A stretch of DNA of 64,000 nucleotides from Thermodesulfovibrio sp. 3462-1 (GTDB lineage: Bacteria; Nitrospirota; Thermodesulfovibrionia; Thermodesulfovibrionales; Thermodesulfovibrionaceae): positions 558,001 to 622,000 of the forward strand of contig NZ_CP144374.1 in NCBI RefSeq assembly GCF_040451425.1, read 5' to 3'. The position numbers were made by a program, and so were the translations under genes. Positions 21,462-43,397 of this stretch are shown here, one piece after another; position 1 is the stretch's first letter, and the number at the start of each line of letters is the position of its first letter. Below the pieces are notes generated by a model. It did not search any database, had not been told where the DNA came from, and saw only the letters and a program-made list of their open reading frames with translations.

Positions 21462-24062
21462 CCACTTGGTATTACCTCTTCGATAAATCCCTCTTGCCAT
21501 GTTTTTCCCCTCCTTTTTTTCTAATTCTTTAATGAAAGACTTAATCTCAAAATTGTTTCAATTCCTCATAGGTAGGCTCGCAAACATCTAAAAAGTACAA
21601 TTGGGTAGTTTATTCTATTATTAGTTTCAATTCCTCATAGGTAGGCTCGCAAACGAAGCACAGCTGAGGTGCTATCTCAACTGCTGGGATTGTTTCAATT
21701 CCTCATAGGTAGGCTCGCAAACGAGGGAAAGGTTCTTAACCAGGAAGAGCTGGAGGCGTTTCAATTCCTCATAGGTAGGCTCGCAATATGCAAAAAATTG
21801 TCTCTTCCAACCCACCGATGGAGTTTCAATTCCTCATAGGTAGGCTCGCAATTTGTATCTAATGGTAGTGGTAATCGCATTGTGAATGGTTTCAATTCCT
21901 CATAGGTAGGCTCGCAATCATAGCACTTCATCACCACCTCACTATAGGAATTGACCGTTTCAATTCCTCATAGGTAGGCTCGCAAACGAAGCACAGCTGA
22001 GGTGCTATCTCAACTGCTGGGATTGTTTCAATTCCTCATAGGTAGGCTCGCAATTCATGAGTGATGAGCTAAATAACAATAGCAACGCCGTGTTTCAATT
22101 CCTCATAGGTAGGCTCGCAATTCCTCCTGGATTTTTTCTTTCCCCCCGAGTCTTTCTGTGTTTCAATTCCTCATAGGTAGGCTCGCAAACAAAAATGAAA
22201 TTTGAAGAAATCATTAAAAATTTAATGTTTCAATTCCTCATAGGTAGGCTCGCAAACTCGTCGAATGGCCTGGGGGAGACTGGAACTGTGCAAGTAGTTT
22301 CAATTCCTCATAGGTAGGCTCGCAATTCAACAAATGAGTAGTAGATGGAAAAATTGCTTTACCAGTTTCAATTCCTCATAGGTAGGCTCGCAATAGGAGA
22401 TATGAGAGAAGGGGGAACGTATTTATCTCCACGTTTCAATTCCTCATAGGTAGGCTCGCAATCCAGCCTCCAAAGGAGGCTTTGGGAGGGTCAGTTGTAG
22501 TTTCAATTCCTCATAGGTAGGCTCGCAATCGGCCAATTTTATATGGCCCTCCAAAAATTAAAAGCTGAGTTTCAATTCCTCATAGGTAGGCTCGCAAACA
22601 TATAAACTCCATTCTTTAAAGCACTTGCCCAATCACGTTTCAATTCCTCATAGGTAGGCTCGCAAATTGAGCCAAGAAACAGGTATTCCAATCCCTGACC
22701 TGAGTTTCAATTCCTCATAGGTAGGCTCGCAAACCTGGGAAGAACTTCACCCTCGCTATTTACGGGGGTAGTTTCAATTCCTCATAGGTAGGCTCGCAAA
22801 TTTATTGAGTTCAGTATTTCCTGTATGTCTGAAGTATGTTTCAATTCCTCATAGGTAGGCTCGCAAATCATCTTTTATTTCTTTTCCTAAAGCTTCCAAT
22901 TCTTGTTTCAATTCCTCATAGGTAGGCTCGCAATGCTGTTGACTCTTTAGCTTTTTCAAATTCTGTATTATCCTGTTTCAATTCCTCATAGGTAGGCTCG
23001 CAATGTTGGAATATCCGTGCTTTCACGGATATCCCATTTAGTTTCAATTCCTCATAGGTAGGCTCGCAATGAAATGTAATAATTCCCCGCCAAAGGCGGA
23101 GATGTAATGTTTCAATTCCTCATAGGTAGGCTCGCAAACACTCCTGCTCCTGATCCTGTGGCTTAGTAGAAACTGGTTTCAATTCCTCATAGGTAGGCTC
23201 GCAAACTTGTTTGATGGGGTCTGCTGGACCCCAAACAACTGCGTTTCAATTCCTCATAGGTAGGCTCGCAAACTTGGACAGCTATCCTGTGTGTTTATTC
23301 TCATAGGTACGTTTCAATTCCTCATAGGTAGGCTCGCAAACTCAACAGAGATGAGGTATGGATAGGCTTGGTAGTCTCGGTTTCAATTCCTCATAGGTAG
23401 GCTCGCAAACGACAAATGATGTATGCTGTATTTTCCTATCTTTTCTGCGTTTCAATTCCTCATAGGTAGGCTCGCAATAACAGTAGTTCCATCATCAATA
23501 GCATCCTGAAGTCCATGTTTCAATTCCTCATAGGTAGGCTCGCAAACGGCTTAAAAAGGCTAAAGATGCCAATGCCTGGGTAAGTTTCAATTCCTCATAG
23601 GTAGGCTCGCAAACAAAGTAGAAAGCGACAAGTGTATTAAATGAGTTAGGGTTTCAATTCCTCATAGGTAGGCTCGCAAACCAACTATCTTGAAACAAAA
23701 ATCCCTGTTCAATCTCCAGTTTCAATTCCTCATAGGTAGGCTCGCAAACCCATGATATCCACTACTTTATCCGAGGCAAATTTTATAGTTTCAATTCCTC
23801 ATAGGTAGGCTCGCAAACTCCAGAAGTGGCATAGATTGTAGAATTAAACTGAAAATACGTTTCAATTCCTCATAGGTAGGCTCGCAAACTCCCGCCGTAA
23901 TGGCTTTTGCTACAGCTTTTGATGCCGGTTTCAATTCCTCATAGGTAGGCTCGCAAACCTCTCAGTTGAAGTGGCAGTGTGCCCTTCTGGCCAGGTTTCA
24001 ATTCCTCATAGGTAGGCTCGCAAACGGGGCTATGCCCCTATGATCCAGAGTACCCAAAGAGA

Positions 24063-24290
24063 GTTTCAATTCCTCATAGGTAGGCTCGCAATTTCCATAC
24101 ATCCCATGTTACTGAAACACCTATCCAAGTTTCAATTCCTCATAGGTAGGCTCGCAATTTCCATACATCCCATGTTACTGAAACACCTATCCAAGTTTCA
24201 ATTCCTCATAGGTAGGCTCGCAATTTCCATACATCCCATGTTACTGAAACACCTATCCAAGTTTCAATTCCTCATAGGTAGGCTCGCAAT
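24063..24290 (-). repeat. Three tandem identical repeat-spacer units
   Basis: The spacer beginning TTTCCATACATCCCATG occurs three times in a row, between repeats starting at 24063, 24129, 24195 and 24261. Slippage or unequal recombination within the array explains it more simply than three acquisitions of the same sequence. Confidence 0.95.
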
Positions 24291-26470
24291 CGTAGTCAGA
24301 ATATATCCTTTTTTGCTGAAAAATCTGTTTCAATTCCTCATAGGTAGGCTCGCAAAATAATAGGGTATTTTGACCCCACCATAAGGCATGGTAGTTTCAA
24401 TTCCTCATAGGTAGGCTCGCAACATATCCACTCCAAGATGTCTGTGATACTCGAAAAAGGTTTCAATTCCTCATAGGTAGGCTCGCAAATCAAACCCTGT
24501 ATCCTCTACAACGGCAACGGATACCCAGTTTCAATTCCTCATAGGTAGGCTCGCAAATGTACTTCTAAAGTGGCAGAAAGGACTGTTGATAAGAGTTTCA
24601 ATTCCTCATAGGTAGGCTCGCAAATGTGTTCAAAATGTTGGATACAACTCCACCAACTCCAAGTTTCAATTCCTCATAGGTAGGCTCGCAATTTCTTGCA
24701 AGCTGAACCAATTTTGGATTAGCAAACAGGTTTCAATTCCTCATAGGTAGGCTCGCAATCATAGCACTTCATCACCACCTCACTATAGGAATTGACCGTT
24801 TCAATTCCTCATAGGTAGGCTCGCAATACGTTTAGACAGCCCTCTTCCTGTATTTCCACAACTGTTTCAATTCCTCATAGGTAGGCTCGCAATATATACA
24901 ATAAGAAAAGCGGCAAATTGGCTGTCTTCTCAATAGTTTCAATTCCTCATAGGTAGGCTCGCAATGGGGGCCCTATACATAGACATAGAGGGGGGAGGCG
25001 CGTTTCAATTCCTCATAGGTAGGCTCGCAATTGGCAATATGGATGGCAGTGTCAACCGCGGCAAAAGAGGTTTCAATTCCTCATAGGTAGGCTCGCAATG
25101 TCCATAAAAGTTAGGTTTTGCTTCCCAAAAATTGGGTTTCAATTCCTCATAGGTAGGCTCGCAATTCCGCAGCTTAAAAAGGAGGTGCGAGGATGTATTG
25201 TTAGGTTTCAATTCCTCATAGGTAGGCTCGCAATTAGGGTACTCGAGAGAGCATTCCCTGAGAAACCCCGGTTTCAATTCCTCATAGGTAGGCTCGCAAT
25301 CCTCCAAATTCTAATGCATTCAACTGTTTCCGCTTTAAGTTTCAATTCCTCATAGGTAGGCTCGCAATTAATCAGACTCTAACTCGTTTAGTAGGGCATT
25401 GGTTGTTTCAATTCCTCATAGGTAGGCTCGCAATCCATCTGGGAAGACCTCTCCCGGAGGGATTTCACAAGTTTCAATTCCTCATAGGTAGGCTCGCAAT
25501 CGGTATTTGATTGCATCCGTATATGTTCCGCATACAGGGTTTCAATTCCTCATAGGTAGGCTCGCAATTTTATAAGAATGTGAAAGCAGTAGATATACTT
25601 CTGTAGTTTCAATTCCTCATAGGTAGGCTCGCAATATGTAGATGTGAATCTGAGTCAACTTACCAGCATGGGTTTCAATTCCTCATAGGTAGGCTCGCAA
25701 TCTATATAACAACACTGATAATACTACTCCTGCATGGGTTTCAATTCCTCATAGGTAGGCTCGCAATCCTGTCTTTAGAGTTACATAGTTTGTTCCCGGG
25801 GAAAGTTTCAATTCCTCATAGGTAGGCTCGCAATGGAAAATGCCCGCAACACCAACAATTTCAGGAAGCAGTTTCAATTCCTCATAGGTAGGCTCGCAAT
25901 GAAATATGCCAGTTTTTTATGACGAAGGGTCCTGGAGTTTCAATTCCTCATAGGTAGGCTCGCAATGCAATGAGATCCCTGTATTTGTTTTGACCCAGGA
26001 TTGGTTTCAATTCCTCATAGGTAGGCTCGCAATTGGCAATATGGATGGCAGTGTCAACCGCGGCAAAAGAGGTTTCAATTCCTCATAGGTAGGCTCGCAA
26101 TTTCTCTAGGAGTAGTTATATTACTTGCAACCCTCCCAGTTTCAATTCCTCATAGGTAGGCTCGCAATGGTTATTACAGTTAGAGGAAACTGGATTGTAT
26201 ATTTGTTTCAATTCCTCATAGGTAGGCTCGCAATAAAGAATCTGGAGAAAAAAGCGGGTACGAGATACTGGTTTCAATTCCTCATAGGTAGGCTCGCAAT
26301 TTACCTCCCTTTGGCTTATTGTCGGTAAACAGATCAGGTTTCAATTCCTCATAGGTAGGCTCGCAATGTCTCAAATAACTGGAAAGCACCTTATCCATCA
26401 GATGTTTCAATTCCTCATAGGTAGGCTCGCAATGCTATTAACTGTAGTAGCTTTTCAGTCTGTTCTGCTT

Positions 26471-27432
26471 GTTTCAATCCCTCATAGGTAGGCTCGCAAT
26501 CAGGGGAGCTTACCCCTGAACAGAAAGAAAAACTCCGTTTCAATCCCTCATAGGTAGGCTCGCAATTCCGTGCTAATTCTTTACATCTCCCGAGAAGTAG
26601 AGTGTTTCAATCCCTCATAGGTAGGCTCGCAATTTGTTAATGGAAGGAATTCCAAGACTTCCGTACTTTCGTTTCAATCCCTCATAGGTAGGCTCGCAAT
26701 GTCACCGTCGGGGGTAAAGCTGATCGACAGCGTTGGTTTCAATCCCTCATAGGTAGGCTCGCAATAAATTAAAGGGGGTAAAGATGAAAATTAGAGAATT
26801 GAGTTTCAATCCCTCATAGGTAGGCTCGCAATAAAGTAAGAAGTGGACTGAAGAGGATGTCAGGAAGAGTTTCAATCCCTCATAGGTAGGCTCGCAATAT
26901 ACAGTGTCCGTCGGGGCAAACAGTATCTGGTCCAGGTTTCAATCCCTCATAGGTAGGCTCGCAATCTGCTTGGTTTTACGGGGCTTGTAAAGTTTGTAAA
27001 AGTTTCAATCCCTCATAGGTAGGCTCGCAATCCAGAAGTGATTACCTGAGAAAACTTATCTTTCCATAGTTTCAATCCCTCATAGGTAGGCTCGCAATCT
27101 TTTTTTATTCTAATTTTATTTTAATTTATTTTGTAGTTTCAATCCCTCATAGGTAGGCTCGCAATAGCAGCCAGAGGATTTTCTCCGGGTAGCTCAGAAT
27201 AGTTTCAATCCCTCATAGGTAGGCTCGCAATTGTCTTTCACAAGTAGTGATTCCCCAGGCTTAGCCGTGTTTCAATCCCTCATAGGTAGGCTCGCAATTT
27301 TTATGCCGTGGCCACCAAGGCCATGGCAACATATTGTTTCAATCCCTCATAGGTAGGCTCGCAATCAACTTAAAGAACTTCCAGCACCACCAACTAAACC
27401 AGGTTTCAATCCCTCATAGGTAGGCTCGCAAT
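26471..27432 (-). repeat. Block of 15 variant CRISPR repeats
   Basis: Fifteen consecutive repeats (first at 26471, last at 27403) carry GTTTCAATCCC instead of GTTTCAATTCC. All repeats counted on either side have the T form. Spacers in the block are of normal length and unique. Confidence 0.95.
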
Positions 27433-29409
27433 TTAGTGAGTTGGGAAGGGTGAAGCAACAGAATGGGCGTTTCAATTCCTCATAGGTAGGCTCGCAATAA
27501 GATAAAAACAGTCAGGGTCAACCTGCCTGTTGAAATGTTTCAATTCCTCATAGGTAGGCTCGCAATGAATTATTCTTCTTGCTCCAGACTGGCAGTTATC
27601 TCTATGTTTCAATTCCTCATAGGTAGGCTCGCAATACAGCTGAGCAAGTAGTTAAAATTATTGGGCTTCCAGGTTTCAATTCCTCATAGGTAGGCTCGCA
27701 ATAAGCTATGGGAACTGCTCTGTGCTTTGCTATTTTTCATAGTTTCAATTCCTCATAGGTAGGCTCGCAATAAAAATTCCATAAATCTTGTAGTTCTGTT
27801 TCTTCGAGTTTCAATTCCTCATAGGTAGGCTCGCAATGAATACAAAACCTTACCTACCATTTTACACAGGAAAGTTTCAATTCCTCATAGGTAGGCTCGC
27901 AATAAGGATATTTTGTTAAAGTGGCAAAAGAGCATGTTGAGTTTCAATTCCTCATAGGTAGGCTCGCAATTAAATAACTGATTATCGTGTTCCTCATGAG
28001 GAAAAAGTTTCAATTCCTCATAGGTAGGCTCGCAATCTTGCTCCTGATCCTGGGGCTGAGTAGAAATAGTTAGTTTCAATTCCTCATAGGTAGGCTCGCA
28101 ATTCCAAGCTAAAAAGCTTCATAGTTTCAGGCAAAGAGAGTTTCAATTCCTCATAGGTAGGCTCGCAATCAGCAAGTTTTTGTAAAACCAGAGCCTGACC
28201 TCTACTGTTTCAATTCCTCATAGGTAGGCTCGCAATGAATACAAAACCTTACCTACCATTTTACACAGGAAAGTTTCAATTCCTCATAGGTAGGCTCGCA
28301 ATTTTTAGACGAATTAATTCATGAGCTTATTGAAGAAATGTTTCAATTCCTCATAGGTAGGCTCGCAATTTTACCATAGGGTGGGAACGCTTCTATGGGG
28401 ACAAAGGTTTCAATTCCTCATAGGTAGGCTCGCAATTTGGGATATTATTCAAATGGCAAAAGAATTTACTTGTGTTTCAATTCCTCATAGGTAGGCTCGC
28501 AATTCAAAAAGTCAGAATTGCCGCAGAGAACAGACTAAGAGGTTTCAATTCCTCATAGGTAGGCTCGCAATACATTTCAAATCCCGCTTTTGCGATTGAG
28601 TTCGCCAGTTTCAATTCCTCATAGGTAGGCTCGCAATTCATTTTCCTGATGTTGATAACAAGACATTAGATGCATGTTTCAATTCCTCATAGGTAGGCTC
28701 GCAATTTCTTATACAAATATTTAAAAATTAAACTTGAAAAAAGTTTCAATTCCTCATAGGTAGGCTCGCAATAAGATTGAGAATGTTGGTAATGTAAATT
28801 TGAATGATTAGTTTCAATTCCTCATAGGTAGGCTCGCAATTCCCTACAAATCTTTCTCAAAAAATACAGAAAAGAGTTTCAATTCCTCATAGGTAGGCTC
28901 GCAATTGGTAATTGGTATGCATTGCCTCGCAAGATTGAGGAGTTTCAATTCCTCATAGGTAGGCTCGCAATTTTGTCATTGAAAATATTTTTTTTATCTC
29001 TATTGGGTTTCAATTCCTCATAGGTAGGCTCGCAATAATTTTAACAAAATGGCAAAGGCAGCAATTAGTTCGGTTTCAATTCCTCATAGGTAGGCTCGCA
29101 ATAGTTAATATTTAGTAGCAACAGATGTTAAAAATGAGTGTTTCAATTCCTCATAGGTAGGCTCGCAATCTTGTCAAGCAATAAATCATCATCAATGTAT
29201 TTTTTGGTTTCAATTCCTCATAGGTAGGCTCGCAATAGTTAATATTTAGTAGCAACAGATGTTAAAAATGAGTGTTTCAATTCCTCATAGGTAGGCTCGC
29301 AATAGGTAGACCCCGAAAAACTATCAGAAATTTCTGAGAAGGGTTTCAATTCCTCATAGGTAGGCTCGCAATGAGGAGAAACTTTGGAGCTTATACTTTA
29401 CCGTGTCTA

Positions 29410-29839
29410 GTTTCAATTCCTCATAGGTAGGCTCGCAATGCATAGAAGGTGTCAAAGTCCGATAGCAAAACTCTTGTTTCAATTCCTCATAGGTAGGCTC
29501 GCAATTGGCAGGGAGGAGGTGGTTATATTGAGAAAGATTCTTGTTTCAATTCCTCATAGGTAGGCTCGCAATATTATCAAATAGCAGAGGTTGACCTCAG
29601 AAATTATAGTTTCAATTCCTCATAGGTAGGCTCGCAATTTATCCCCCTTTGGCTTAAGGGCAGTAAACAGATCAGGTTTCAATTCCTCATAGGTAGGCTC
29701 GCAATCCAAAATCACCTTTGCCATAGTCTTCCTCCTTTTTTTGTTTCAATTCCTCATAGGTAGGCTCGCAATTTGTATTCCTCATGATTCATAAATACAG
29801 CTTTAGCCTGTTTCAATTCCTCATAGGTAGGCTCGCAAT
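29410..29839 (-). repeat. Duplicated array segment, copy 1 (six spacers)
   Basis: Seven repeats and six spacers (first spacer begins GCATAGAAGGTGTC, last ends CTTTAGCCT in plus-strand reading) are identical to 30750-31179. The offset is exactly 1340 bp, or 20 units. Confidence 0.95.
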
Positions 29840-30749
29840 AATGATGCACTGGCAGTTCCTCCGGGTTTTGTCTTAGTGTTTCAATTCCTCATAGGTAGGC
29901 TCGCAATTGAGACTACTGCCAACGGCATAAATTTCTTTTATGAGTTTCAATTCCTCATAGGTAGGCTCGCAATCCCTTCAACATCAACAATTTCAGCTTT
30001 CTGAAGCAGGTTTCAATTCCTCATAGGTAGGCTCGCAATTCAAGCCACATTTCTGTTTCAATTTTTCCGTATTGTCGTTTCAATTCCTCATAGGTAGGCT
30101 CGCAATCTACTTCAAACGAAAAACTTGAAAATAGCTATTTTCTGCGGTTTCAATTCCTCATAGGTAGGCTCGCAATTGAACGATGCTACTTTTTACCCCA
30201 AGCTCACTTATGTTGTGTTTCAATTCCTCATAGGTAGGCTCGCAATTATGCACAGGATAATAAGATGGCACAAGGAGAATTCGTTTCAATTCCTCATAGG
30301 TAGGCTCGCAATAAATTGATAAAGTTAATTCAATTTCTACGCCTCCAGTTTCAATTCCTCATAGGTAGGCTCGCAATTCTTGATGAGGCCAAGGAAAGAC
30401 TAAAGAGAAAATGTTTCAATTCCTCATAGGTAGGCTCGCAATTCTTCCTCAAAGAGTACAGAAAAGACAACGACTTATTTAGTTTCAATTCCTCATAGGT
30501 AGGCTCGCAATATATCTACAGTTACACCGCCAATGTCCTTATATACAAAACGTTTCAATTCCTCATAGGTAGGCTCGCAATTGGGAGGAGCTACCAGCAT
30601 CATTGCTCTTTTCCATTGTTTCAATTCCTCATAGGTAGGCTCGCAATTACTTTCATAAGATATACGGGGTCACAGAGAAGTTGTTTCAATTCCTCATAGG
30701 TAGGCTCGCAATACCCTGAGCGCGCGGAAGAATACGCAGAGTACAGGGT

Positions 30750-31179
30750 GTTTCAATTCCTCATAGGTAGGCTCGCAATGCATAGAAGGTGTCAAAGTCC
30801 GATAGCAAAACTCTTGTTTCAATTCCTCATAGGTAGGCTCGCAATTGGCAGGGAGGAGGTGGTTATATTGAGAAAGATTCTTGTTTCAATTCCTCATAGG
30901 TAGGCTCGCAATATTATCAAATAGCAGAGGTTGACCTCAGAAATTATAGTTTCAATTCCTCATAGGTAGGCTCGCAATTTATCCCCCTTTGGCTTAAGGG
31001 CAGTAAACAGATCAGGTTTCAATTCCTCATAGGTAGGCTCGCAATCCAAAATCACCTTTGCCATAGTCTTCCTCCTTTTTTTGTTTCAATTCCTCATAGG
31101 TAGGCTCGCAATTTGTATTCCTCATGATTCATAAATACAGCTTTAGCCTGTTTCAATTCCTCATAGGTAGGCTCGCAAT
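30750..31179 (-). repeat. Duplicated array segment, copy 2 (six spacers)
   Basis: Second copy of the block at 29410-29839. Spacers on both outer sides differ from those around the first copy, so the duplication covers only these six spacers. Confidence 0.95.
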
Positions 31180-34100
31180 TTAGAAAAAAAGATAGAGGGT
31201 ATTGACAAAGAGGAAGAGTTTCAATTCCTCATAGGTAGGCTCGCAATGTGGAGAGCATCATCCAGAATAGATTATCTATGTATTTGTTTCAATTCCTCAT
31301 AGGTAGGCTCGCAATGAAAAAGCTCGCAGGGACATGGGAAGGCGAGTTTTTGTTTCAATTCCTCATAGGTAGGCTCGCAATAAATTGAGCAGGGCATTAA
31401 AAAGTGCACTGTCATTGAGTTTCAATTCCTCATAGGTAGGCTCGCAATCAACAAAAATGTATATACTGTCAGAAAGTGGATATCCGTTTCAATTCCTCAT
31501 AGGTAGGCTCGCAATGTTTACAAAAAGTTGCTTACAGCAGAAAAGAAAAAGAAGTTTCAATTCCTCATAGGTAGGCTCGCAATCTGAATACATCCGAGAG
31601 CTTGCGGAGAGTATCAGGGAAGTTTCAATTCCTCATAGGTAGGCTCGCAATTTGTCGGTTCTATATAAAACCAGCAGGGGGAGAACAGTTTCAATTCCTC
31701 ATAGGTAGGCTCGCAATATTGTTTTTGTGAATTATGGGAGGGTTGCAAGTAATAGTTTCAATTCCTCATAGGTAGGCTCGCAATGATACTCTGTATAGTC
31801 TCCCTGGTATGTCTGAAAAGTGTTTCAATTCCTCATAGGTAGGCTCGCAATTGTATCCATTTATCAAGAAGTATGACTGCTGCTACTGTTTCAATTCCTC
31901 ATAGGTAGGCTCGCAATTAGGGTGGAGGCAAAATACAGTGATATTCGACGAAGAGTTTCAATTCCTCATAGGTAGGCTCGCAATGGATGGGAAGTTGGAT
32001 TTGCAAACTCTATACATGACGGTTTCAATTCCTCATAGGTAGGCTCGCAATACACCAGTGGAAAGAGATTTTCCATGGGGGAAAAGAGTTTCAATTCCTC
32101 ATAGGTAGGCTCGCAATGAACTAAACTACAGGCAACAGTAGCAGGAAATGGCTTGTTTCAATTCCTCATAGGTAGGCTCGCAATGGTATTAATTTTGAAA
32201 TCTGGTTTTTTATTTGGTTCTGGTTTCAATTCCTCATAGGTAGGCTCGCAATTCAGTTTTTGTCTCAGGGTTTGTATATAGTAGATAATAGTTTCAATTC
32301 CTCATAGGTAGGCTCGCAATGACTCTTTGTGATGGAGTTACCAAGGCATATCGTAAGTTTCAATTCCTCATAGGTAGGCTCGCAATTTGGAAACGCGGTA
32401 TATGGTGTGTATGTGTACGAAAGTTTCAATTCCTCATAGGTAGGCTCGCAATTCAGTCGGTTTCTTTAAAGTTGGGGGTGATGTAGGAAAGTTTCAATTC
32501 CTCATAGGTAGGCTCGCAATTAATTTCTGCCATGCTGGCACCCCCTATTAATTTTTTGTTTCAATTCCTCATAGGTAGGCTCGCAATAAGAATTATTGTT
32601 ATGTAATCGATGACCCCGAGGAGGTTTCAATTCCTCATAGGTAGGCTCGCAATTCTTTTCCAAAAAAAGAAATTGCTTTTGATTTCCCTAGTTTCAATTC
32701 CTCATAGGTAGGCTCGCAATATTTCCCTGATAAAGTAAAAAAGAGAGGAGGTGATAAGTTTCAATTCCTCATAGGTAGGCTCGCAATAATTTCCCCCTCT
32801 TAACCCAATCCCTGTGGATTGGAGTTTCAATTCCTCATAGGTAGGCTCGCAATTCTGAAGACCCAATCAGAAAGATAAATAGCTTTTACTTGTTTCAATT
32901 CCTCATAGGTAGGCTCGCAATCAGGATGCGTGAGATATACCAGATATCAGTTCCACTGTTTCAATTCCTCATAGGTAGGCTCGCAATCTAGGGATAAAAG
33001 GAAATATCCTTTCAATCGTAATAGGTTTCAATTCCTCATAGGTAGGCTCGCAATTTCTATCAGTGACGGATATTTTGTGATTCTTCTGTCGTTTCAATTC
33101 CTCATAGGTAGGCTCGCAATGTATTCCTTGAAGCCATGGAGGTAAACTTCCTTGTGGGTTTCAATTCCTCATAGGTAGGCTCGCAATCCTGTTGAAAATG
33201 AACTCAAAGCACTAAGAGTAACTCGTTTCAATTCCTCATAGGTAGGCTCGCAATCGTGTAAAGTCGAGTTTACAAGGAGTTGCTTACAGCGTTTCAATTC
33301 CTCATAGGTAGGCTCGCAATTAAAGTGGAAAATTACAAAAATCATAGACCTTCAAAGGTTTCAATTCCTCATAGGTAGGCTCGCAATTTTATGAATTTGG
33401 AATCTCCTTTGAGGAGAAACACCCGTTTCAATTCCTCATAGGTAGGCTCGCAATCTTTAGGGTTATCCTTGTTTTCAACTACATAGTTAGTTTCAATTCC
33501 TCATAGGTAGGCTCGCAATTTCACAATCTTGATTTCTGCCCCTACCGTTATATCCTGTTTCAATTCCTCATAGGTAGGCTCGCAATGAGTCAATGTATTC
33601 TTTTACAATTGTTTTTGCGTCTTCGTTTCAATTCCTCATAGGTAGGCTCGCAATGTTTGCAGGCGAATATGGAATGACTTTATTGTAGTTAGTTTCAATT
33701 CCTCATAGGTAGGCTCGCAATAGATTGATCAGGGCATCAGAGGATGCCCTGTTATTGAGTTTCAATTCCTCATAGGTAGGCTCGCAATGGAAATAGAGAA
33801 CGGTTGAGGAATCCGCTATTTGTCTGTTTCAATTCCTCATAGGTAGGCTCGCAATATAAACTGGGATGAAATACGAGAGATTGTAGGTATAGGTTTCAAT
33901 TCCTCATAGGTAGGCTCGCAATCTACAGTAGTAATCAAAAAAATTGATCTTCATGAAGTTTCAATTCCTCATAGGTAGGCTCGCAATTCAATCGGAGAAA
34001 CAGGCTTGTTAAAATTTAGAGATAGTTTCAATTCCTCATAGGTAGGCTCGCAATAAAATACAAGAAATTGCTAAAGATTTTGGAATTAGTCTGTTTCAAT

Positions 34101-34722
34101 TCCTCATAGGTAGGCTCGCAATTCGTCTTCTGCCGTTAAACATTCAAAAATTTGATAGGTTTCAATTCCTCATAGGTAGGCTCGCAATCGCTCCGTGAAT
34201 GGTTGCACACTATAAAGAATATGTAGTTTCAATTCCTCATAGGTAGGCTCGCAATTTTGGTGATCTTGATGCTATAAAAAAACTACAACAGCGTTTCAAT
34301 TCCTCATAGGTAGGCTCGCAATACGAAAGAACTAGAGGAAGAGTTGAGCTATTATATAGTTTCAATTCCTCATAGGTAGGCTCGCAATATCTACTTCAGG
34401 TGGCAGACTTTTCAGTCCTGGGTCGTTTCAATTCCTCATAGGTAGGCTCGCAATCTTTGAGGAGTTTAATAATGCTTGCTCCCCCAACTTGTTTCAATTC
34501 CTCATAGGTAGGCTCGCAATTTTTTTTGTCAATTTTGTCTTTATCAAAAAAGTAAATGGTTTCAATTCCTCATAGGTAGGCTCGCAATAAAAAATTTTGA
34601 TATAATTAAAGTAGAATAAAAAAAGTTTCAATTCCTCATAGGTAGGCTCGCAATATATTCTCTCCTACTTGCTCAATATGCATTCTCAAAATGTTTCAAT
34701 TCCTCATAGGTAGGCTCGCAAT

Positions 34723-34863
34723 CCATTTTTTATGCGAAAAATCAAAACATAATTTTCAAAGAACAATAGAATTATTTTATTTTTTATCATAAGTTCCCTT
34801 AAAAAATCAACTTTTCCTTCGTCGCTGTCCCAGCATTTTTGCATTATCAGGGATAGACGAATC
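34723..34863 (-). promoter_or_regulatory. CRISPR leader
   Basis: The 141 bp between the cas2 stop and the first repeat are strongly AT-rich and should hold the array promoter and the signals for spacer insertion. The half near the array reads, on the minus strand, with runs such as GATAAAAAATAAAATAA and TTGAAAATTATG; I cannot choose a -10 box with confidence. The half near cas2 holds a long inverted repeat, listed separately. Confidence 0.7.
34818..34861. repeat. Interrupted inverted repeat in the leader
   Basis: TTCGTC plus GTCCC on one side pair with GGGA plus GACGAA on the other across about 18 bases that include GCATTTTTGCATTAT. Related imperfect palindromes with a CAAAAA centre are known in leaders of thermophile arrays. 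It could bind Cas1-Cas2 or a host factor, or act as the terminator of the cas operon. Confidence 0.5.
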
Positions 34864-35194
34864 TCAGAGTATCACCTCTTCCCCTCCCTTCTCTATGCCC
34901 ATTATCTCCCGCCTTGTATACCAGCCTGTCCTGAAGGTATAGATAATGATGGAGTCCTCCTCTTCATTGATTATCTTCCTTAACTCACTCTTGAGCTTCT
35001 CAAGCCTTGCCACTGTTATCTCTCCCTCAAATACAGAATTCTGCACCCAGTGTAGATACTTTCTGCAAATCTTCAAAACGAGCAACAACTGGAAAATGCT
35101 CATCAACAAGACAGTCGTGTAGATACTTTCTGCAAATCTTCAAAACCTTCTGAACCCTTTCTTCTTTGACATCATAAACAAGTATTACATTCAT
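34864..35194 (-). pseudogene. cas2: cas2 interrupted by a spacer-like insertion
   Basis: Cas2 forms the structural core of the Cas1-Cas2 spacer integrase. From ATG 35194 the protein starts correctly (MNVILVYDVKEERVQKVLK, with the conserved Asp8) but after KYLH reads into a 67-bp insertion, shifts frame and stops after 55 codons. Without the insertion it would be a normal 87-residue Cas2 ending GWYTRREIMGIEKGGEEVIL. An ATG inside the insert restores the frame for residues 18-87, but that product lacks strand 1 and the Asp. It follows cas1 directly and no second cas2 is in the window. Confidence 0.93.
35050..35146. repeat. Perfect 30-bp direct repeats flanking a 37-bp insert inside cas2
   Basis: The 30 bases at 35050-35079 (starting GTGTAGATACTTTC, ending CTTCAAAAC) recur without a mismatch at 35117-35146; bases just outside differ on both sides. 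Between them, 35080-35116 is 37 bp of unique sequence. Removing one repeat and the 37 bp restores cas2 exactly. Repeat length and insert length equal those of the neighbouring CRISPR array. Confidence 0.97.
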
Positions 35195-35195
35195 T

Positions 35196-36188
35196 CTACC
35201 ATGAGGTTATAAAAGGTCTGTATTCTTCATCCCCTATGAGATGCTTCTCTATCTTGTAGAGTTCAAGCCTTATCAATTGTCTGTAAGACACATGTCTGCC
35301 GAGCCCTCTGTGCTCAAAAGTTGCCTTGAGCCGCTCATCCATCTCTCTTACAAAAACCTCTCTCCCCTTCTCATTCAAAACAATTCCGTCAAGCTTCTGT
35401 TCAAAATGCTGTGGTTTAATGATTCCTTTATTTACCAGTGTAAATATCACCCTGTCTGCAATGATCGGCTTAAAGACCTCTGCTACATCAAGATTAAGTG
35501 AAAACCTCCTGAAATTCGTGGTATGCAAGAAACCAATCCTGGGGTCAAGATGGGTATGATATATTTCGCTAAGACAGACTGTATAGAGAATAGAATTTGC
35601 AAAACTAATAAGGGCATTTAGCCGATTTTTTGGTGGTCTCCTTGTTCTACCTTCAAATATAAAATGCTCATTATCCAGAATCCTGTCAAAGGCATAGTAG
35701 TATTGCTCCCTTATGTTTCCCTCAATCGCCATCAATCCCTCTGTGTCTTTACAGGATTGTAGCGATTGAGAAATTGATTCTATTTTCTGAATATACTTTT
35801 CCAGTTGTTTTCCTCTATTTTTATAATAAGCAAGCACCTTTTTTATGTTCTCCACAGCACCCTCTACAAATTTCCTTGCAAGGATGAGCCGTTTTGATGG
35901 GTCAAGATAATGTTCAGCCTGCTTTAGTATCATATATCCAGAATTCAGATGCTGTCTTGGATAGTATGAGCCCACATAGTAGCCGTAATAGTTGAAAAAG
36001 TGCATTATAATTTCGCTTTCTGTGAGGAATTCAAGAAGTCTCTTGTTTATTGAAACTTCACCAAAGATAAAAAGTTCTGATGTGTTTTCTACAGGGATGT
36101 ATTTTTTGCCTTCTTCAGTTTCAAAATAGAGTGTGTTTCCTTTTCTTTTTAGTTCGCCATCTGAAAATATGTAAATCGTCCTTTTCAT
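35196..36188 (-). CDS. cas1: CRISPR integrase Cas1 (type I-B)
   Basis: Metal-dependent endonuclease that inserts spacers together with Cas2. From ATG 36188 (MKRTIYIFSDGELKRKGNTL) it is 330 residues; the frame open to 36215 is rejected because ATG 36188 overlaps the cas4 stop as ATGA. The metal ligands are expected in MAIEGNIREQYYYAFD (Glu), LHTTNFRRFSL (His) and NLDVAEVFKPIIAD (Asp/Glu); all are present. Complete and apparently functional, unlike the adjacent cas2. Confidence 0.95.
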   Translation of the reverse strand: MKRTIYIFSDGELKRKGNTLYFETEEGKKYIPVENTSELFIFGEVSINKRLLEFLTESEIIMHFFNYYGYYVGSYYPRQHLNSGYMILKQAEHYLDPSKRLILARKFVEGAVENIKKVLAYYKNRGKQLEKYIQKIESISQSLQSCKDTEGLMAIEGNIREQYYYAFDRILDNEHFIFEGRTRRPPKNRLNALISFANSILYTVCLSEIYHTHLDPRIGFLHTTNFRRFSLNLDVAEVFKPIIADRVIFTLVNKGIIKPQHFEQKLDGIVLNEKGREVFVREMDERLKATFEHRGLGRHVSYRQLIRLELYKIEKHLIGDEEYRPFITSW

Positions 36189-36688
36189 GACCAGCAAAAC
36201 TCCTGATAACCACATTTTGAACAGAATTTTGTTTTTTGTGCTTGCGGAGGTATCTCCATTTTAATTATTTCTTTAATCTGGGCTTGCGCTTCAATGAGCT
36301 CGGCTTTAAGCTCTTTTGTAAGGGTAACAATGATTTTTTTCTTTTCTTTTGGAAAGAGAAGTTGCCCAGTAGCTTCAATACCGAGTTGTTTTAGCCTCCA
36401 CAGATAAAAGGCAAGTTGCATCCTTGCACTTTTCTCAAAACGAGAGCTTTTCTTAACCTCACCAATCACCACATTTTCACCTTCTGTTTTTAACAAATCT
36501 ATAACAATGTTTTCAAGATGAATCTCTTTTCTTTCCCTTTTGTATGCTTCTTCTGACAGTAGCCTGCCAATCTCAATAAATGGATTTTCCTGCCATGGTG
36601 TAAGCTGCCTTGACATAAGCCAGACCTCCCGGGGGCAGATGTAATAATACCAGATAAGGGTTCCAGTGGGGTGCATTGAATTCACCAT
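36185..36688 (-). CDS. cas4: Cas4 exonuclease
   Basis: A RecB-like 4Fe-4S nuclease that trims prespacers and helps choose the PAM. The 167 residues hold the cluster cysteines C18 (YICPREVW) and C156, C159, C165 (FCSKCGYQEFC). The nuclease core is in IVIDLLKTEGENVVIGEVKKSS, with Asp and the E-x-K pair. ATG 36688 overlaps the end of cas3; a second ATG at 36676 (MHPTGTLIWYYY) is equally possible. Confidence 0.93.
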   Translation of the reverse strand: MVNSMHPTGTLIWYYYICPREVWLMSRQLTPWQENPFIEIGRLLSEEAYKRERKEIHLENIVIDLLKTEGENVVIGEVKKSSRFEKSARMQLAFYLWRLKQLGIEATGQLLFPKEKKKIIVTLTKELKAELIEAQAQIKEIIKMEIPPQAQKTKFCSKCGYQEFCWS

Positions 36689-39030
36689 AACAATAGCCCT
36701 GCTTTGGTTTTAAATCCTGTTTCATGGTCATAATAATCTTCAAGCTGATTTTGAGAGATGTAATAAGTATCCATAATTTTTGGAGGTAGATTTTCAGTAT
36801 TTGCTGGAATAGAAATGATATAATCGTAAAAATCTTTGCGAATTTGCAAAAATTCTTTTTTCCGTTCAAAAAGGTTTTTAATCATTTTAATTCTTTCAAA
36901 TTCCTTCCAAACTTTTACTGCTCTTTCGTCGTATTCAATAAATACATCTATTTCTGGATAGTCTTCCTCTATCAGTTTAAAATCAGAAATTGACAACTCA
37001 TCCGTCTCCTGTTTATCATATCTCAATCTGGAAACAGCCTCTAAAATTTCTGAGGATTCTGTCTGATTCAGTTTTTCAGTAATTTGTTGGAAATAGGTAT
37101 CAAGTAGCTGGAAAAGCTGTTTTTCATTAAAAAATTGCCTTGCAGATAGAAGTTTCTCTGTAATATCAATTAAAACAGGATCATAAATATAGGATGCATA
37201 GCGTCTGCCATGTTTGTCCGTAAGAGTGAATACTTTAACTGTGCCTTTTTTATTACCAGCATTTCTGTTACACCTTCCAGCAGACTGGATTATACTGTCA
37301 AGAGGAGCGATATCCCTGTAAACTATGTCAAAATCTATGTCTACTCCAGCCTCCACGAGTTGAGTGGACACAACTAATTTGTATTTTCCATTTCTAATTT
37401 CCTCAATTCTTTTTTGCCTTTCTAATGGAACAATATGGGTGCTGAGAAATGTTTTTGATATAGAATTGATTTTAAGAAGTGAATAGAATTTCTTGGCAGA
37501 TGCAATTGTATTAAAGATAAATAGTTTTGAATTCTCTGGATTTTCATCAATTTGATTGACAATTTGTTCAATTTTGACTGGATTTTCAATTTCCGAGTAT
37601 AACTCTATTCTATTAAGGTTATCATAATATTTAGAGGGCTCTGTTATGCTAAATATTTCATTCTTATCAAATATCAGCGGTTCGGTAGCAGTCATAAGAA
37701 TGACATATGAATTAAATTTCTCTGCAAGTAACATCAGGATTGTTTTGATAAGTTTCCAATACTTAATAGGTATAGATTGTATCTCATCAAGTATTATAAT
37801 TGAATTGATAAAGCGGTGGAATTTTCGTAAACTACTGTTTTTATTCGAAAACAATGTGTGAAAGAGTTGAACGAAAGTTGTTATTATTATTTCCGAGTTC
37901 CATCCCTCTATCAATAATTCCCCTTCTTGAGTTTCATATTCCTTTTCTTCAGTTTTGTAAAAAATCTCTGCAAGATGATGGTGTTTGAGCATGATATTTG
38001 ATGTGGGATTTGTTCCGTTTTCTTCAATTACTTTTTCAATGACCTGAGCGTTTTGCTCAATTATGCTTAGAAAAGGTAGAGAGTAAATTATTCTTGGATT
38101 GACTTTCAATTTTCTGAGCTCGCTTTTTAGTTTCAATGCAAAGGAAAGACCGGTAAGGGTCTTTCCAAGTCCTGTGGGTAAGTTGATAGAATAAAATCTT
38201 TTATTCAGATCAATATCTTTTTTCATTACCTCATGGTAAGCTTTAGTTCTTAGTTCATTAATTATGGACGGGATGGGTTTTACTTTTATTAAGTAGTTCT
38301 TTACCCAATCTTTGTCATCATAAGTCTTTCTTATCGGAATATTGGAATTTTCAAGAACTACGTCGGTTTTGTCTGCATCAAGAAGAAGCGAATAAATAAG
38401 ATTTAAAGTGAGATAAGGTGTCAAATCTTTGTTTTTCCTTATTAATTTTTTGTAAAACTTTAATTCTCTCTCAAATTCGTTAAACCATGTATTAATCAAT
38501 AGCTTTGTTAGCAAAACGGGAAGTCCTTTTTGATGCAATGTATTGCACAATGTGGAAAAAGAATGATTATTAATGCTTTCAAGCTGTGTTTGTAGTATTT
38601 GAAGATTTTTTTCATCAAATAGTGATGTTTCATCCATTACATCTATCAGGTCATCGTGATGCCTCCTTACCGCAATGTAAGCAAAAAGGGGCAAGAATAC
38701 ATTTTCATTACATGTTTTTTGACAAAATTCTTTTACGATAAAGTAGGTACATATAGCAGAAAAGAGACTGTGCGATGAATATTCAGACTTTAATTTTTGC
38801 TTAGCTGACTCTTCTGCAAAAAGATAATCCTGAAAATATCTGGTTGACTTACCTATATCGTGAGTAAGACCAATTATTCGTGCAACCTCTTTAAGCTCAT
38901 TCTGAATAGCTAACGGTTTCTCTGATAAGAAATATTCCATCAAATCAGCTACATTGATGAGATGGTCTTCCAGTAATTTATCTGGATGGGAATACAAATT
39001 AGAAGAAGACGATATTTTCCCCATTTTCAA
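36682..39030 (-). CDS. cas3: Cas3 helicase-nuclease with N-terminal HD domain
   Basis: The effector nuclease of type I systems: it unwinds and degrades DNA found by Cascade. Residues 1-240 form an HD nuclease domain (HPDKLLEDH, GLTHDIGKS with H57-D58, RRHHDD). Then come the SF2 helicase parts: Walker A NLPTGLGKTLTG near 284, Walker B ILDEIQSIP near 415, MTATEP, VSTQLVEAGVDIDFD and the QSAGRCNRN arginine-finger motif. 782 residues, or 780 from the second ATG. Overlaps cas5 by about 30 bp. Confidence 0.95.
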   Translation of the reverse strand: MKMGKISSSSNLYSHPDKLLEDHLINVADLMEYFLSEKPLAIQNELKEVARIIGLTHDIGKSTRYFQDYLFAEESAKQKLKSEYSSHSLFSAICTYFIVKEFCQKTCNENVFLPLFAYIAVRRHHDDLIDVMDETSLFDEKNLQILQTQLESINNHSFSTLCNTLHQKGLPVLLTKLLINTWFNEFERELKFYKKLIRKNKDLTPYLTLNLIYSLLLDADKTDVVLENSNIPIRKTYDDKDWVKNYLIKVKPIPSIINELRTKAYHEVMKKDIDLNKRFYSINLPTGLGKTLTGLSFALKLKSELRKLKVNPRIIYSLPFLSIIEQNAQVIEKVIEENGTNPTSNIMLKHHHLAEIFYKTEEKEYETQEGELLIEGWNSEIIITTFVQLFHTLFSNKNSSLRKFHRFINSIIILDEIQSIPIKYWKLIKTILMLLAEKFNSYVILMTATEPLIFDKNEIFSITEPSKYYDNLNRIELYSEIENPVKIEQIVNQIDENPENSKLFIFNTIASAKKFYSLLKINSISKTFLSTHIVPLERQKRIEEIRNGKYKLVVSTQLVEAGVDIDFDIVYRDIAPLDSIIQSAGRCNRNAGNKKGTVKVFTLTDKHGRRYASYIYDPVLIDITEKLLSARQFFNEKQLFQLLDTYFQQITEKLNQTESSEILEAVSRLRYDKQETDELSISDFKLIEEDYPEIDVFIEYDERAVKVWKEFERIKMIKNLFERKKEFLQIRKDFYDYIISIPANTENLPPKIMDTYYISQNQLEDYYDHETGFKTKAGLLLW

Positions 39031-39718
39031 GATAGTAAAATTTTTTCAAATATGCTGTAATTGTCCTCCCTTCTGGCTCATAAATAACATCACCGTAGTT
39101 CTCAACGATTCTTTCTGGTGTCATCCTTATAGGAATTTTTTCCTTGAAGTATTTTCTCCCCTCCTGTAATTCTATGCCCTTGTTTATGAGCATGCTTACA
39201 GGTACTACAGTAGAAATCTCGGTCCTGGGTTTTTCCATTTCTCTTGTATCATAAACTCCAACAAAACAAAAATCAGCAAGAAGTTCACTTAAACCTAACG
39301 AAACTGTATAAAATGATTGATGGGATTGAACCATATTGATGAGTTTGTCAAAAGTATCTTTATCTTGGTGCCAGACATAGACTCTGTATTTTGGTGTCTT
39401 AACAAATTCAGTTAATATCTGAGTGCGTGGCTCATGATTTTTCTTTTTAATAAGAAGAAGGTATTTGTTGTCTTTAGTGTTTATTAGATTTATTCCCATT
39501 CGCACTTTTTTTATAGGGTTTATTATCCTTAAGGCGATTTTGCAATTGTCATATCCAAAAATATTTAAATATTCATTTTTTGGAGCGCCATAAATCGCAC
39601 CTAATATGCCCGCAACTGTTGGAGGTGGTGGAAAAGAAAAGGTAAGAGGTGATGTAGTGGTGTAATATTTTCGGAAATGAGCAAAATCACCGTATAAATC
39701 AAACACAAGCACTTTCAT
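38999..39718 (-). CDS. cas5b: Cas5 of the type I-B Cascade
   Basis: Binds the 5' handle of the crRNA in Cascade. The opening VLVFDLYGDFAHFRKYYTT and SPLTFSFPPPPTVAGILGAIYG with its proline-rich loop is the standard Cas5 signature; 239 residues. The gene lies 10 bp after cas7 and overlaps cas3. The residues of Cas5d that process crRNA in type I-C are not evident. Confidence 0.93.
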   Translation of the reverse strand: MKVLVFDLYGDFAHFRKYYTTTSPLTFSFPPPPTVAGILGAIYGAPKNEYLNIFGYDNCKIALRIINPIKKVRMGINLINTKDNKYLLLIKKKNHEPRTQILTEFVKTPKYRVYVWHQDKDTFDKLINMVQSHQSFYTVSLGLSELLADFCFVGVYDTREMEKPRTEISTVVPVSMLINKGIELQEGRKYFKEKIPIRMTPERIVENYGDVIYEPEGRTITAYLKKFYYLENGENIVFF

Positions 39719-39728
39719 AGTTAAAACC

Positions 39729-40640
39729 CTAAAAAGTGAGCTCCTCTACAGTGAGATCACTTAATGCACTTTTTAAATCAATTTCCTCGCCATTTCTGAT
39801 AAGCCTGACTCTATCATCAACTTTTACTCTGACTTTTTCTATTTTGTCTTTATATTTAGCAAGAGTATCAATAAGCTTGGTTACATCTATTTTCACTTCT
39901 GATATATCTCTTATAGCTTCATCAGGGATCTCTGATTTTAAAGATATAAGTTTATCAAGTTCTCCAATGTAAAAATTTAGTCCTTCTTTATAAACAATCT
40001 GTAAAAGTATTCTTGGCATCTGTCCAAACTTTGAGCCTGAGATAAGATTTTTCGTTCCATTCCACATTCCCTCAAGCATTAAATCTATATCTTCTTCAGT
40101 AAGAGGAATATTTTGAGTTGTAGCAGCCTTTTCATTTACGACTCCATAGAAAACAATTAAAGAGTATGGAAGAATATACCGTTCTGTAAAGGTGCCTTGT
40201 TGTCTGCCAGTTGCAGAAGGCATAACTGTAGTCCCTTTGATATAAGTTAAGTCAACTTTATGTAAAGACCTTCCATATTTGAACTGAACCGGACCTGTAA
40301 GCGTAATTGTTCTATTTTCTACAGCAGTGGTGCAGCCAAAAAGACGAATATCAATACATCTTTCAATTATGGAACTATCGGCAAAGTCGTTCAATCTTTC
40401 CTCTTTTGTTTTGAGACTTCCATCTTCTTTCCTGATCTCACGAATAAAAATTTCCTGACCTTTGTAATCGTATAAATAATCTCTAATAGTTCTTTTCAAT
40501 CTCACATCAGTAACAATGGTTGCTCCTGTTTCCTCATCAATCCTCGGCTTGTTTTCATCAACAGGGTCTCCGTTTGGATTGGCATCTTTCACATCATAGA
40601 GAAACAAAATTTCTGAACGATTTTTTACTAATTCTGGCAT
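39729..40640 (-). CDS. cas7b: Cas7 backbone subunit of type I-B (Csh2 family)
   Basis: Six or so copies line the crRNA in Cascade. The opening SEILFLYDVKDANPNGDPVDENKPRIDEE is the DevR/Csh2 signature (key: D-x-NPNGDP-x4-PRID), 303 residues in all; GRSLHK and FTERYILPYSLI follow. It starts 10 bp after the type III-D RAMP gene, so the III-D and I-B parts are one transcription unit. A strong AGGAGG-like GGAGG precedes the ATG. Confidence 0.95.
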   Translation of the reverse strand: MPELVKNRSEILFLYDVKDANPNGDPVDENKPRIDEETGATIVTDVRLKRTIRDYLYDYKGQEIFIREIRKEDGSLKTKEERLNDFADSSIIERCIDIRLFGCTTAVENRTITLTGPVQFKYGRSLHKVDLTYIKGTTVMPSATGRQQGTFTERYILPYSLIVFYGVVNEKAATTQNIPLTEEDIDLMLEGMWNGTKNLISGSKFGQMPRILLQIVYKEGLNFYIGELDKLISLKSEIPDEAIRDISEVKIDVTKLIDTLAKYKDKIEKVRVKVDDRVRLIRNGEEIDLKSALSDLTVEELTF

Positions 40641-40650
40641 GTTAACCTCC

Positions 40651-42753
40651 TTATAAAATTTCTTCTGGTTTATTTAAGACCTTTCTTTGTCTGAATTCGC
40701 CGAGTTCCATATATTCAGTCTTTTTATTTGCAGGTCTATGGGCAAAGTCAAGCATCTTCTTAAGTTGCCTAAGCCTATCAGTTTCCCAGAGGGATGACCT
40801 GTTTTCTTGAAGTTTCTCGAAAACATATTCTTCAAAAGCCTTTTTAAAGCCTTCAATCTCTGAAGTTTTATCATCAAGACCGTTCCACTCTGAAAAAAGG
40901 TCCTGATAACGGTTTTGTCTGTTAGATAGATAAAGCCGTGGCTTAATTTCAACAGAGCCAAGTCCGAGGGGCTTTCCCATGCCGAGTTTATGGGCAAGAC
41001 CATCTGGCAGGGAAAGGGCAAAGAGTAGGGCACCAAGTTCAACCCTTGAAAGGTTTTCAAAACGGATTCTGCCTTGAAAAATAGAGCCTGGTTTTATGGG
41101 AGTTAAAATAGTATGCTGAGTTTCATATATTCCAATTGACTGATAAATAATGTTCCTGAGGTTGTCTGGCAAATTAGTAAGGTTTATTTTTATTTTTTTG
41201 TTTTTCTCTTCTAAAATGTAAGGTTGAAAATCCTCTTTTCTAATCAGATGCTTTTTCAGTAGTTCGTTGAATTCTTTTTCATCATAAGATATTTCCACCT
41301 CTTCCCATCCATTTCCATCCCTGTGCCAGTAGAGTTTGTAGCCGCGGATTGGATTGGCAGAATTATAATGAGCAAGATTTTTAGGATGGTCCTTGAGATT
41401 TTCAGGTCTCTGCTCAAGATAGTGTTGAAATGATGTTGGTTTTGGTCCTGAAAGAATCTGTGGGATAACGCTTGGCATAATGGCATCCTCTGGATTTCCC
41501 TCAAGATAGGCATCTTCAAAAAATACTCTTGAGGCATAGGTTTTTTCGTTCCCAAAGATAGCCTCAGGGATGTCTAAAACAGCTTTTTTCAATTCAGCAG
41601 GCACATGGTCTCCAATGGTCTTTTCATAGGCAAGGCGGAACATACCTGTGTGACCGAAGGAGATTCTATCTTCACCCTTTGTATCCTTATATCTCACATA
41701 GAAACAGGGCACGCCATCTTTCGCAAGTTTTAGCAAGTCTGGAACTTTATCACTTCTGTTTTTGTCATCCTTATAGTTTTGAATATCAATTTCGGGAATT
41801 TTAAACGCCTTTGCATCTTTATCAGGATATTCTATAAACCAATCTCTCTTTTTATTTTCCATTGGACCAGAAACAACAATGTACCCATTGTTTACTTTAT
41901 AAAATTTGAAGTCTTCATACCTCTTGCCTGTTTGTTCAATCATTTGGCGTGCTTCAGATTTGAGTATCTGTCTGAATCCTTTTGCTGGTGTAATGAAATA
42001 ATCAAAGCCTTTTTTGGTTAAAATTCCAGCAGACATTTTATATTGAGTTTTTTTACTATTTTTATCAAAAGAACTCATCTTTCTCTGATATTCTTGTCGC
42101 AGATTCTTGCATTTGTCAGCAAGTCCCCTATAATACAACCTTGAATCCTCAAAAAACCCAAACTTCCCATAACTCATTATCTCAACCATTGTCCTTATCA
42201 TGCCGCGCAGGGAGCTGCCAGGGATGCGGAGAAGTCCACCAGGGGAGAAGAAGTCGGGATTAATGTATTGTTGGTCTTTTTCTTTTTCTATCCTTATCTT
42301 TTCTTTGTATTCATCCTCAGTTAAGGTATCCCTGATATAAAAAGGTGTGAGGGTCTTTATCTCAAGGTCTATGTAGCCTGTGAATCTGTCAGTGTGGTAT
42401 CTATCAAAATCTGGCGGGTTATCAACATGCACAACTTTATGATTAAGCGGAATAAAATTGTAAGGAGCTCTGGCATAGATATCATTTGAGGCTGGTCTGG
42501 GATTTCTCTGTGAATGACGCGTTTGAAGATCCCTCTGTGGTGATGAACTTCTTTTTGTGTAAATCTCTTTCCCTTCGCAGAGTATTTTTACAACCTGCCC
42601 GTTTTCTCTTTGCACCTCCACCTCTTTGCCGTCTAAAGTGTTATCTTTTGGTCTAAATCCAGAAACCGGCATTGATTTATTGTTTTGAAAAATCAGCCTT
42701 GCCTCAAATTCTCCCTTTTTTGTCTTTGTGATTTGAAGTTTTGCTTTCTCCAT
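40651..42753 (-). CDS. Large type III RAMP protein (TIGR03986-like)
   Basis: A 700-residue RAMP-superfamily protein of the type III-D module. From ATG 42753 (MEKAKLQITKTKKGEFEA) an OB-like N-terminal part is followed by a first Cas7-like unit (GYIDLEIKTLTPFYIRD, LLRIPGSSLRGMIRT with its glycine-rich loop) and a second (TPIKPGSIFQGRIRFENLSRVELGALL, LAHKLGMGKPLGLGSVEI). Family members of about this size accompany Csx10 and Csx19. The residues QRDLQTRHSQRNPRPASND form a basic, disordered linker. Expected to line the target RNA. Confidence 0.85.
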   Translation of the reverse strand: MEKAKLQITKTKKGEFEARLIFQNNKSMPVSGFRPKDNTLDGKEVEVQRENGQVVKILCEGKEIYTKRSSSPQRDLQTRHSQRNPRPASNDIYARAPYNFIPLNHKVVHVDNPPDFDRYHTDRFTGYIDLEIKTLTPFYIRDTLTEDEYKEKIRIEKEKDQQYINPDFFSPGGLLRIPGSSLRGMIRTMVEIMSYGKFGFFEDSRLYYRGLADKCKNLRQEYQRKMSSFDKNSKKTQYKMSAGILTKKGFDYFITPAKGFRQILKSEARQMIEQTGKRYEDFKFYKVNNGYIVVSGPMENKKRDWFIEYPDKDAKAFKIPEIDIQNYKDDKNRSDKVPDLLKLAKDGVPCFYVRYKDTKGEDRISFGHTGMFRLAYEKTIGDHVPAELKKAVLDIPEAIFGNEKTYASRVFFEDAYLEGNPEDAIMPSVIPQILSGPKPTSFQHYLEQRPENLKDHPKNLAHYNSANPIRGYKLYWHRDGNGWEEVEISYDEKEFNELLKKHLIRKEDFQPYILEEKNKKIKINLTNLPDNLRNIIYQSIGIYETQHTILTPIKPGSIFQGRIRFENLSRVELGALLFALSLPDGLAHKLGMGKPLGLGSVEIKPRLYLSNRQNRYQDLFSEWNGLDDKTSEIEGFKKAFEEYVFEKLQENRSSLWETDRLRQLKKMLDFAHRPANKKTEYMELGEFRQRKVLNKPEEIL

Positions 42754-42886
42754 ACTCAAAGCCTCCTTTCAAATAAAGCTTCCATTTTTTAAGTTTGTCT
42801 TTTGATACAAATTCTTTTATGAACTCAAGGGCATCTTCTCGTAAAACATTACATTTCGCCTTTGTTAAATCCTGTAAATCGGCAAT
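42704..42886 (-). other. Protein-like frame without a start codon
   Basis: After TAG 42887-42889 a 60-codon frame reads IADLQDLTKAKCNVLRED then ALEFIKEFVSKDKLKKWKLY and stops at 42704, inside the following RAMP gene. It looks like a helical protein but has no ATG, GTG or TTG at its start; ATT is the first codon. It may be a frameshifted tail of Csx19, a small gene with a rare start, or debris. Confidence 0.3.
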
Positions 42887-43397
42887 CTACATAGGAAGCC
42901 TGATAGGTCTCAGGATGAAAATCTATGTAGTTGCGGGTCTTTAAGAAGAGGCGATTCTTCCTGTTGTCCACAGGAATCTCATCAAAAGGTAAAATGAGTT
43001 CTGTTCCCCTTTCTTCAAAGAGCCTTATCCAGCCATCAGATAGCTTCTCTCTATCGGTCCCCCACAAAACCTGATTTGCATCTACAACATAGGTTTCTTC
43101 TCCTTCATCATCAATCCTTAATCTACCTCTCAAACCAACATCTAATCGCCATATAAGGAGCTCTTTTTGTTCATTGAATAGCCTCAATCTCTGGATGTAT
43201 TTTTCTTCAATAGATTCATTATTAAAAAAGAGCAAGGCATTGTTTTTAATCCTTCCAATCAGCACCTTATAATCAAGATAGGCTATAACAAAGCCATCTG
43301 AATTAAAAACTGAAAGGGCGGATTTTATGTTGTCTATGTTTATTGTTTCAGCCTTTGATTTTATCCTTTTAAGCTCCAGCCCATTTGCATTTAACAT
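42849..43397 (-). CDS. csx19: Csx19-like protein of type III-D (TIGR03984)
   Basis: A 182-residue protein of the Csx19 family, found with Csx10 in III-D loci; role unknown, probably a small accessory or Cas11-like subunit. The pattern VIAYLDYKVLIGRI, LRLFNEQKELLIWR and LWGTDREKLSDGWIRLFEERG agrees with the family. Overlaps the upstream RAMP gene by 7 bp. A second protein-like frame continues past its stop (see 42704-42886). Confidence 0.75.
   Translation of the reverse strand: MLNANGLELKRIKSKAETINIDNIKSALSVFNSDGFVIAYLDYKVLIGRIKNNALLFFNNESIEEKYIQRLRLFNEQKELLIWRLDVGLRGRLRIDDEGEETYVVDANQVLWGTDREKLSDGWIRLFEERGTELILPFDEIPVDNRKNRLFLKTRNYIDFHPETYQASYVDCRFTGFNKGEM

Follow-up and report, generated by a model that had tools for sequence, protein, structure and literature searches.

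A probable off-target CRISPR spacer integration interrupts cas2 in a type I-B operon of Thermodesulfovibrio sp. 3462-1

The cas2 gene of a type I-B CRISPR-Cas operon of Thermodesulfovibrio sp. 3462-1 is longer by 67 bp than expected, a gain which consists of 37 unique bases flanked on each side by the same 30 bp of cas2 sequence. The interruption was very probably produced by the off-target integration of a 37-bp pre-spacer, by the type I-B Cas1-Cas2(-Cas4) machinery encoded in the same operon. Off-target integration is considered the best explanation because the sizes of the footprint fit the local repeats and spacers, the empty site is found in relatives, and two independent events of a similar kind were detected. 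The same origin had been proposed in a previous reading of the sequence alone (the sequence-only reading), and is upheld here by the 30/37/30 fit, by the empty site and by the additional events, namely a 29/36 footprint elsewhere in this genome and an event in the UBA2600 array of a sister species. The integrase was presumably this Cas1-Cas2 pair.

In the window, i.e. the whole stretch of 64,000 bp analyzed, the interrupted gene is located on the minus strand at 34864..35193, with an ATG at 35193 and a stop at 34864; its intact orthologues have 87 amino acids. The two 30-bp copies of the target site, not assigned to a strand, are at 35050..35079 and 35117..35146. They enclose the 37-bp insert (35080..35116, likewise not assigned to a strand), a putative spacer, which occurs only once in the genome with up to 3 mismatches allowed; the whole footprint spans 97 bp. 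The bases just beyond the copies are mismatched on both sides (A/C on the left, G/C on the right), and the duplication is therefore exactly 30 bp long, with unambiguous ends. Coordinates and flank mismatches thus confirm the lesion as originally described, a cas2 broken by 67 bp. When the insert and one copy are removed, an 87-residue frame is obtained (MNVILVYDV...EEVIL); in the present sequence, the native start leads to about 55 codons before a stop, 26 of which are native, with the frameshift following residue 26. A scan of the window revealed that this pair is the sole direct repeat of at least 20 bp, with a period of 40-110, outside the array.

The operon is arranged on the minus strand in the order cas7b, cas5b, cas3, cas4, cas1b, cas2, leader and 197-repeat array. 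Matches to protein family models identify cas7b (csh2; 39729..40640, TIGR02590), cas5b (38999..39718, TIGR02592), cas3, which combines HD nuclease and helicase (36682..39030, TIGR01587 and TIGR01596), cas4 (36185..36688, TIGR00372, 101 bits) and cas1b, whose open reading frame (35196..36215) covers model TIGR03641 in full (481 bits, model positions 1-324 of 324). The cognate machinery at the time of the event comprised, accordingly, a full-length cas1b and a cas4 within the operon, along with a cas2 intact save for the insert. Directly upstream of the I-B cas genes, type III genes are located at 40651-44707, including a RAMP of the TIGR03986 family, the Csx19 of type III-D and a Csx7-like RAMP, and apparently use the same array.

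The leader (34723..34863, minus strand), placed between cas2 and the newest repeat, was defined by its position and by alignment with the leaders of congeneric arrays; the insertion site is found on the leader side of the leader-repeat junction, at a distance of 330-420 bp. Decay of the leader was considered as a cause of mistargeting and rejected, as the leader aligns with those of relatives, though differing in places. The array (21555..34722, minus strand) is built from 197 copies of a 30-bp repeat, which reads ATTGCGAGCCTACCTATGAGGAATTGAAAC in the sense of the transcript, and from 196 spacers of 35-42 bp, whose commonest lengths are 37 (75 spacers), 36 (58) and 38 bp (36); the 30-bp repeats and spacers of about 37 bp anticipated by the sequence-only reading are thus those measured. 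Within the repeat, 29 bases are nearly invariant, while the thirtieth is lineage-dependent, being A or G (transcript sense) in relatives. In plus orientation, the base at the leader end is T in the newest repeats (about 147) and a mixture of A and T in the oldest ones (about 50): at 21555-24900, the last repeat base alternates between A and T, and behaves partly like a spacer-derived base.

A search for an uninterrupted cas2 in related organisms had been indicated as a check, and gave a positive result in a comparison between species. The gene is uninterrupted, 87 codons long, in congeneric species including Thermodesulfovibrio yellowstonii; intact orthologues were detected in congeners G002, G005, G012 and G014, and also in G021 and G054, and within the genus they share 69-81% identity with the reconstructed 87-residue Cas2. 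Close Cas1b loci from many phyla also contain an uninterrupted cas2, and of 78 loci where a cas2 match was obtained, not one contained such a duplication within the gene. The presence of an intact cas2 in relatives indicates that the insertion is derived, and the lack of divergence between the two copies indicates that it is recent, relative to the divergence of the species.

In full-site integration, the 3' ends of the pre-spacer are joined to opposite strands at the ends of the repeat, which is then duplicated by gap repair (PMC6895254). The same mechanism, applied to cas2, yields exactly the sequence observed: the two 3' ends of the pre-spacer would attack cas2 on opposite strands, at points separated by 30 bp, and gap repair would copy the 30-bp stretch in between, as the repeat is copied at the leader. 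Another cas1/cas2 pair, the only other one seen in the genome, is found in a type III-A locus (L104:9200-9940), which lies beside a small group of repeats, each about 36 bp long, and codes for a Cas2 of 74 aa and for a remnant of Cas1 (170 aa). This locus is an unlikely integrator: given the size of its repeats and the truncation of both its cas1 and cas2, a 30-bp duplication is not expected from it.

The source of the 37 bases was searched in 176 genomes of the order, in phages, in plasmids and in viral contigs, the latter being screened by 20-mers and then by 16-17-mers extended to full length. No match was detected, the best extended one (27/37) being background-like, and the check for a counterpart in phages, plasmids or elsewhere in the genome itself, also indicated beforehand, was accordingly negative. 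Similarly, the array spacers did not match any phage, so that no PAM was derived, and a protospacer was found neither for the 37-bp insert nor for a 36-bp one, located in a glycosyltransferase gene and described below. The insert also resembles cas1 at 22/37 positions (repeat family D4), a likeness discarded as background, since 33 sites with equal score occur in 400 kb. It is only from the footprint that a spacer origin of the 37 bases, and with it a presumably foreign provenance, is derived.

As a source was not located, and direct repeats of other kinds are present in the genome, the insertion could be alternatively attributed to a tiny non-autonomous transposon, to filler DNA at a staggered break or to replication slippage, the sizes of a CRISPR unit being matched by coincidence. 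Such an origin is very unlikely, because no other copy of the insert exists in the genome or in the order, both sizes of the footprint match the neighboring array, and near-equal footprints recur elsewhere in this genome and in that of a sister species. In addition, the insert differs from its flanks, matching the 37 bases beside either copy at 9/37 positions only, which also rules out a diverged tandem duplication as its source.

Footprints comparable to that left by the proposed spacer integration in cas2 were looked for by scanning for exact two-copy repeats of at least 18 bp with a period of 45-110. In 884 kb of the same genome (stretches for a total of 800 kb, the window and one further locus, less than half of the genome), three pairs were found, corresponding to the cas2 site, the glycosyltransferase site and a 76-bp coding repeat. 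No two-copy pair was detected in congeners G002 and G012 (220 kb each, 440 kb in total); 400 kb of G014 contained pairs of other dimensions only, and none of the three pairs found in 606 kb of viral contigs had the dimensions of the footprint.

The glycosyltransferase site (G000:C1:1527827-1527920, corresponding to L196:17827-17920) consists of 36 unique bases, CGCAGCACGCGCTGAGCCTTTTTTTTTTGAAAAAAC, enclosed by an exact 29-bp duplication, and is shorter than the ruler by one base. The gene is uninterrupted in five relatives and, once the insert and one copy are removed, its product, VSEYVRQYLIQKGIPEKKVF, aligns with the orthologues without gaps. This footprint likely represents a second off-target integration in the same genome; the gene carries other frameshifts too, which may point to a pseudogene or to a poor gene call. 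If a single machine made both inserts, the one in the glycosyltransferase gene preceded the one in cas2. The third case is an off-register integration, with a period of 67, in the array of the sister species G005/UBA2600 (L046:13076-13173, corresponding to L108:210-307), where the duplicated sequence comprises 22 bases of an old spacer and 9 of the following repeat, and encloses 36-37 new bases; the duplication measures 30-31 and the insert 36-37, and before the event this part of the array would have held an ordinary 35-bp spacer and an intact repeat. A 105-bp gap in the array of G014 (L107, reverse-complement, about 12145) was examined as a further candidate and rejected, as it is made up of a Nextera-like adapter followed by Ns, an assembly contamination in a public genome.

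All footprints are read from assembled sequences, and the adapter fragment and Ns of G014, together with the other apparent frameshifts of the glycosyltransferase gene, might suggest that the lesion in cas2 is itself an assembly or sequencing artefact. The probability of this is minimal: exact duplications around a unique sequence are not produced by sequencing errors, one read of the usual sequencing platforms could span the 97-bp footprint, the assembly contains no other match to the 37 bases, and the genome holding the window is a single contig of 1,818,996 bp, rated 99.98% complete.

The cas2 target resembles the repeat only weakly. The two are identical at 13 of 30 positions, a level reached by 2.7% of sites, and the match to the leader-repeat junction is 5/12 at best, a level reached by 19% of sites. 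The GTTT/AAAC terminus, pointed out by the sequence-only reading as common to target and repeat, is present, but the agreement (4 of the 5 terminal bases) is reached by 4% of random 30-mers, and is thus hardly above chance. Similarly, no significant terminal motif is common to the three duplications, in cas2, in the glycosyltransferase gene and in the UBA2600 array. The first base of the 30-bp duplicated stretch is G on either strand. Cas1 prefers a G at the integrated base (PMC4574026, PMC6895254); the G at both duplication starts agrees with this preference, weak evidence consisting of one base each.

With the cas2 frame shifted beyond codon 26, and with no other cas1/cas2 in the genome but a degraded remnant, adaptation has likely been lost in this strain. 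The insertion, even if it arose by spacer integration, would be harmless if an in-frame start within the insert, ATG or TTG, allowed the synthesis of a working Cas2 of 78-81 residues. An 81-aa open frame does begin in the insert, retains Cas2 residues 17-87 and still matches TIGR01573 (36.9 bits), but with its first 16 residues gone it is missing the initial strand, whose YD is conserved among those orthologues which cover that part, and no ribosome-binding site is evident by eye; a functional product is very unlikely. In the sequence-only reading, an inactivation of cas2 would be a natural self-limitation of adaptation; the loss of Cas2 is itself deduced, and a regulatory role is speculation: self-limitation is likely a consequence of the hit on cas2, as opposed to a demonstrated function. 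It may be imagined, with low probability, that off-target integration occurs so often in this lineage as to reach the integrase gene, whereby adaptation turns itself off, and that recombination between the perfect 30-bp direct repeats could restore cas2, turning acquisition reversibly on and off in a population.

Off-target integration is already known, and natural cases were reportedly described by Nivala, Shipman and Church in 2018. Their work is cited in later papers (PMC9456107, PMC11788318, PMC11687729). In the E. coli type I-E system, as outlined there, non-canonical integration similarly leaves, at a chromosomal site outside CRISPR loci, an insert of spacer size flanked by a duplication of repeat size; those proteins were over-expressed, whereas the present case is natural, involves a type I-B system of a thermophilic Nitrospirota, and has cas2 itself as a target. 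In vitro, the type II-A Cas1-Cas2 of S. thermophilus also targets non-CRISPR DNA and prefers a G at the joined base (PMC6895254), but those events are probably half-site and occur at sequences resembling the leader-repeat junction, whereas in cas2 a full-site integration would have been completed at a sequence with weak likeness to the repeat. Natural insertions disabling CRISPR-Cas genes are also produced by insertion sequences (PMC10359306); these require a transposase and a full element, whereas here no element is present and the integrase would be that of the CRISPR system itself. In the papers searched, an off-target spacer within cas2 is not described, which does not prove that such a case has never been reported. 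What is new here is that off-target integration struck the integrase gene itself, in what is probably not the sole event of this kind.

Natural off-target integrations are rarely documented, and the cas2 case would represent an adaptive immune system which mutates its own integrase. A repeat-length duplication around a spacer-length insert provides a signature by which such events may be counted in any genome, and the three footprints described let the in vivo ruler of type I-B systems, their target preference and their mutational cost be read from natural genomes.
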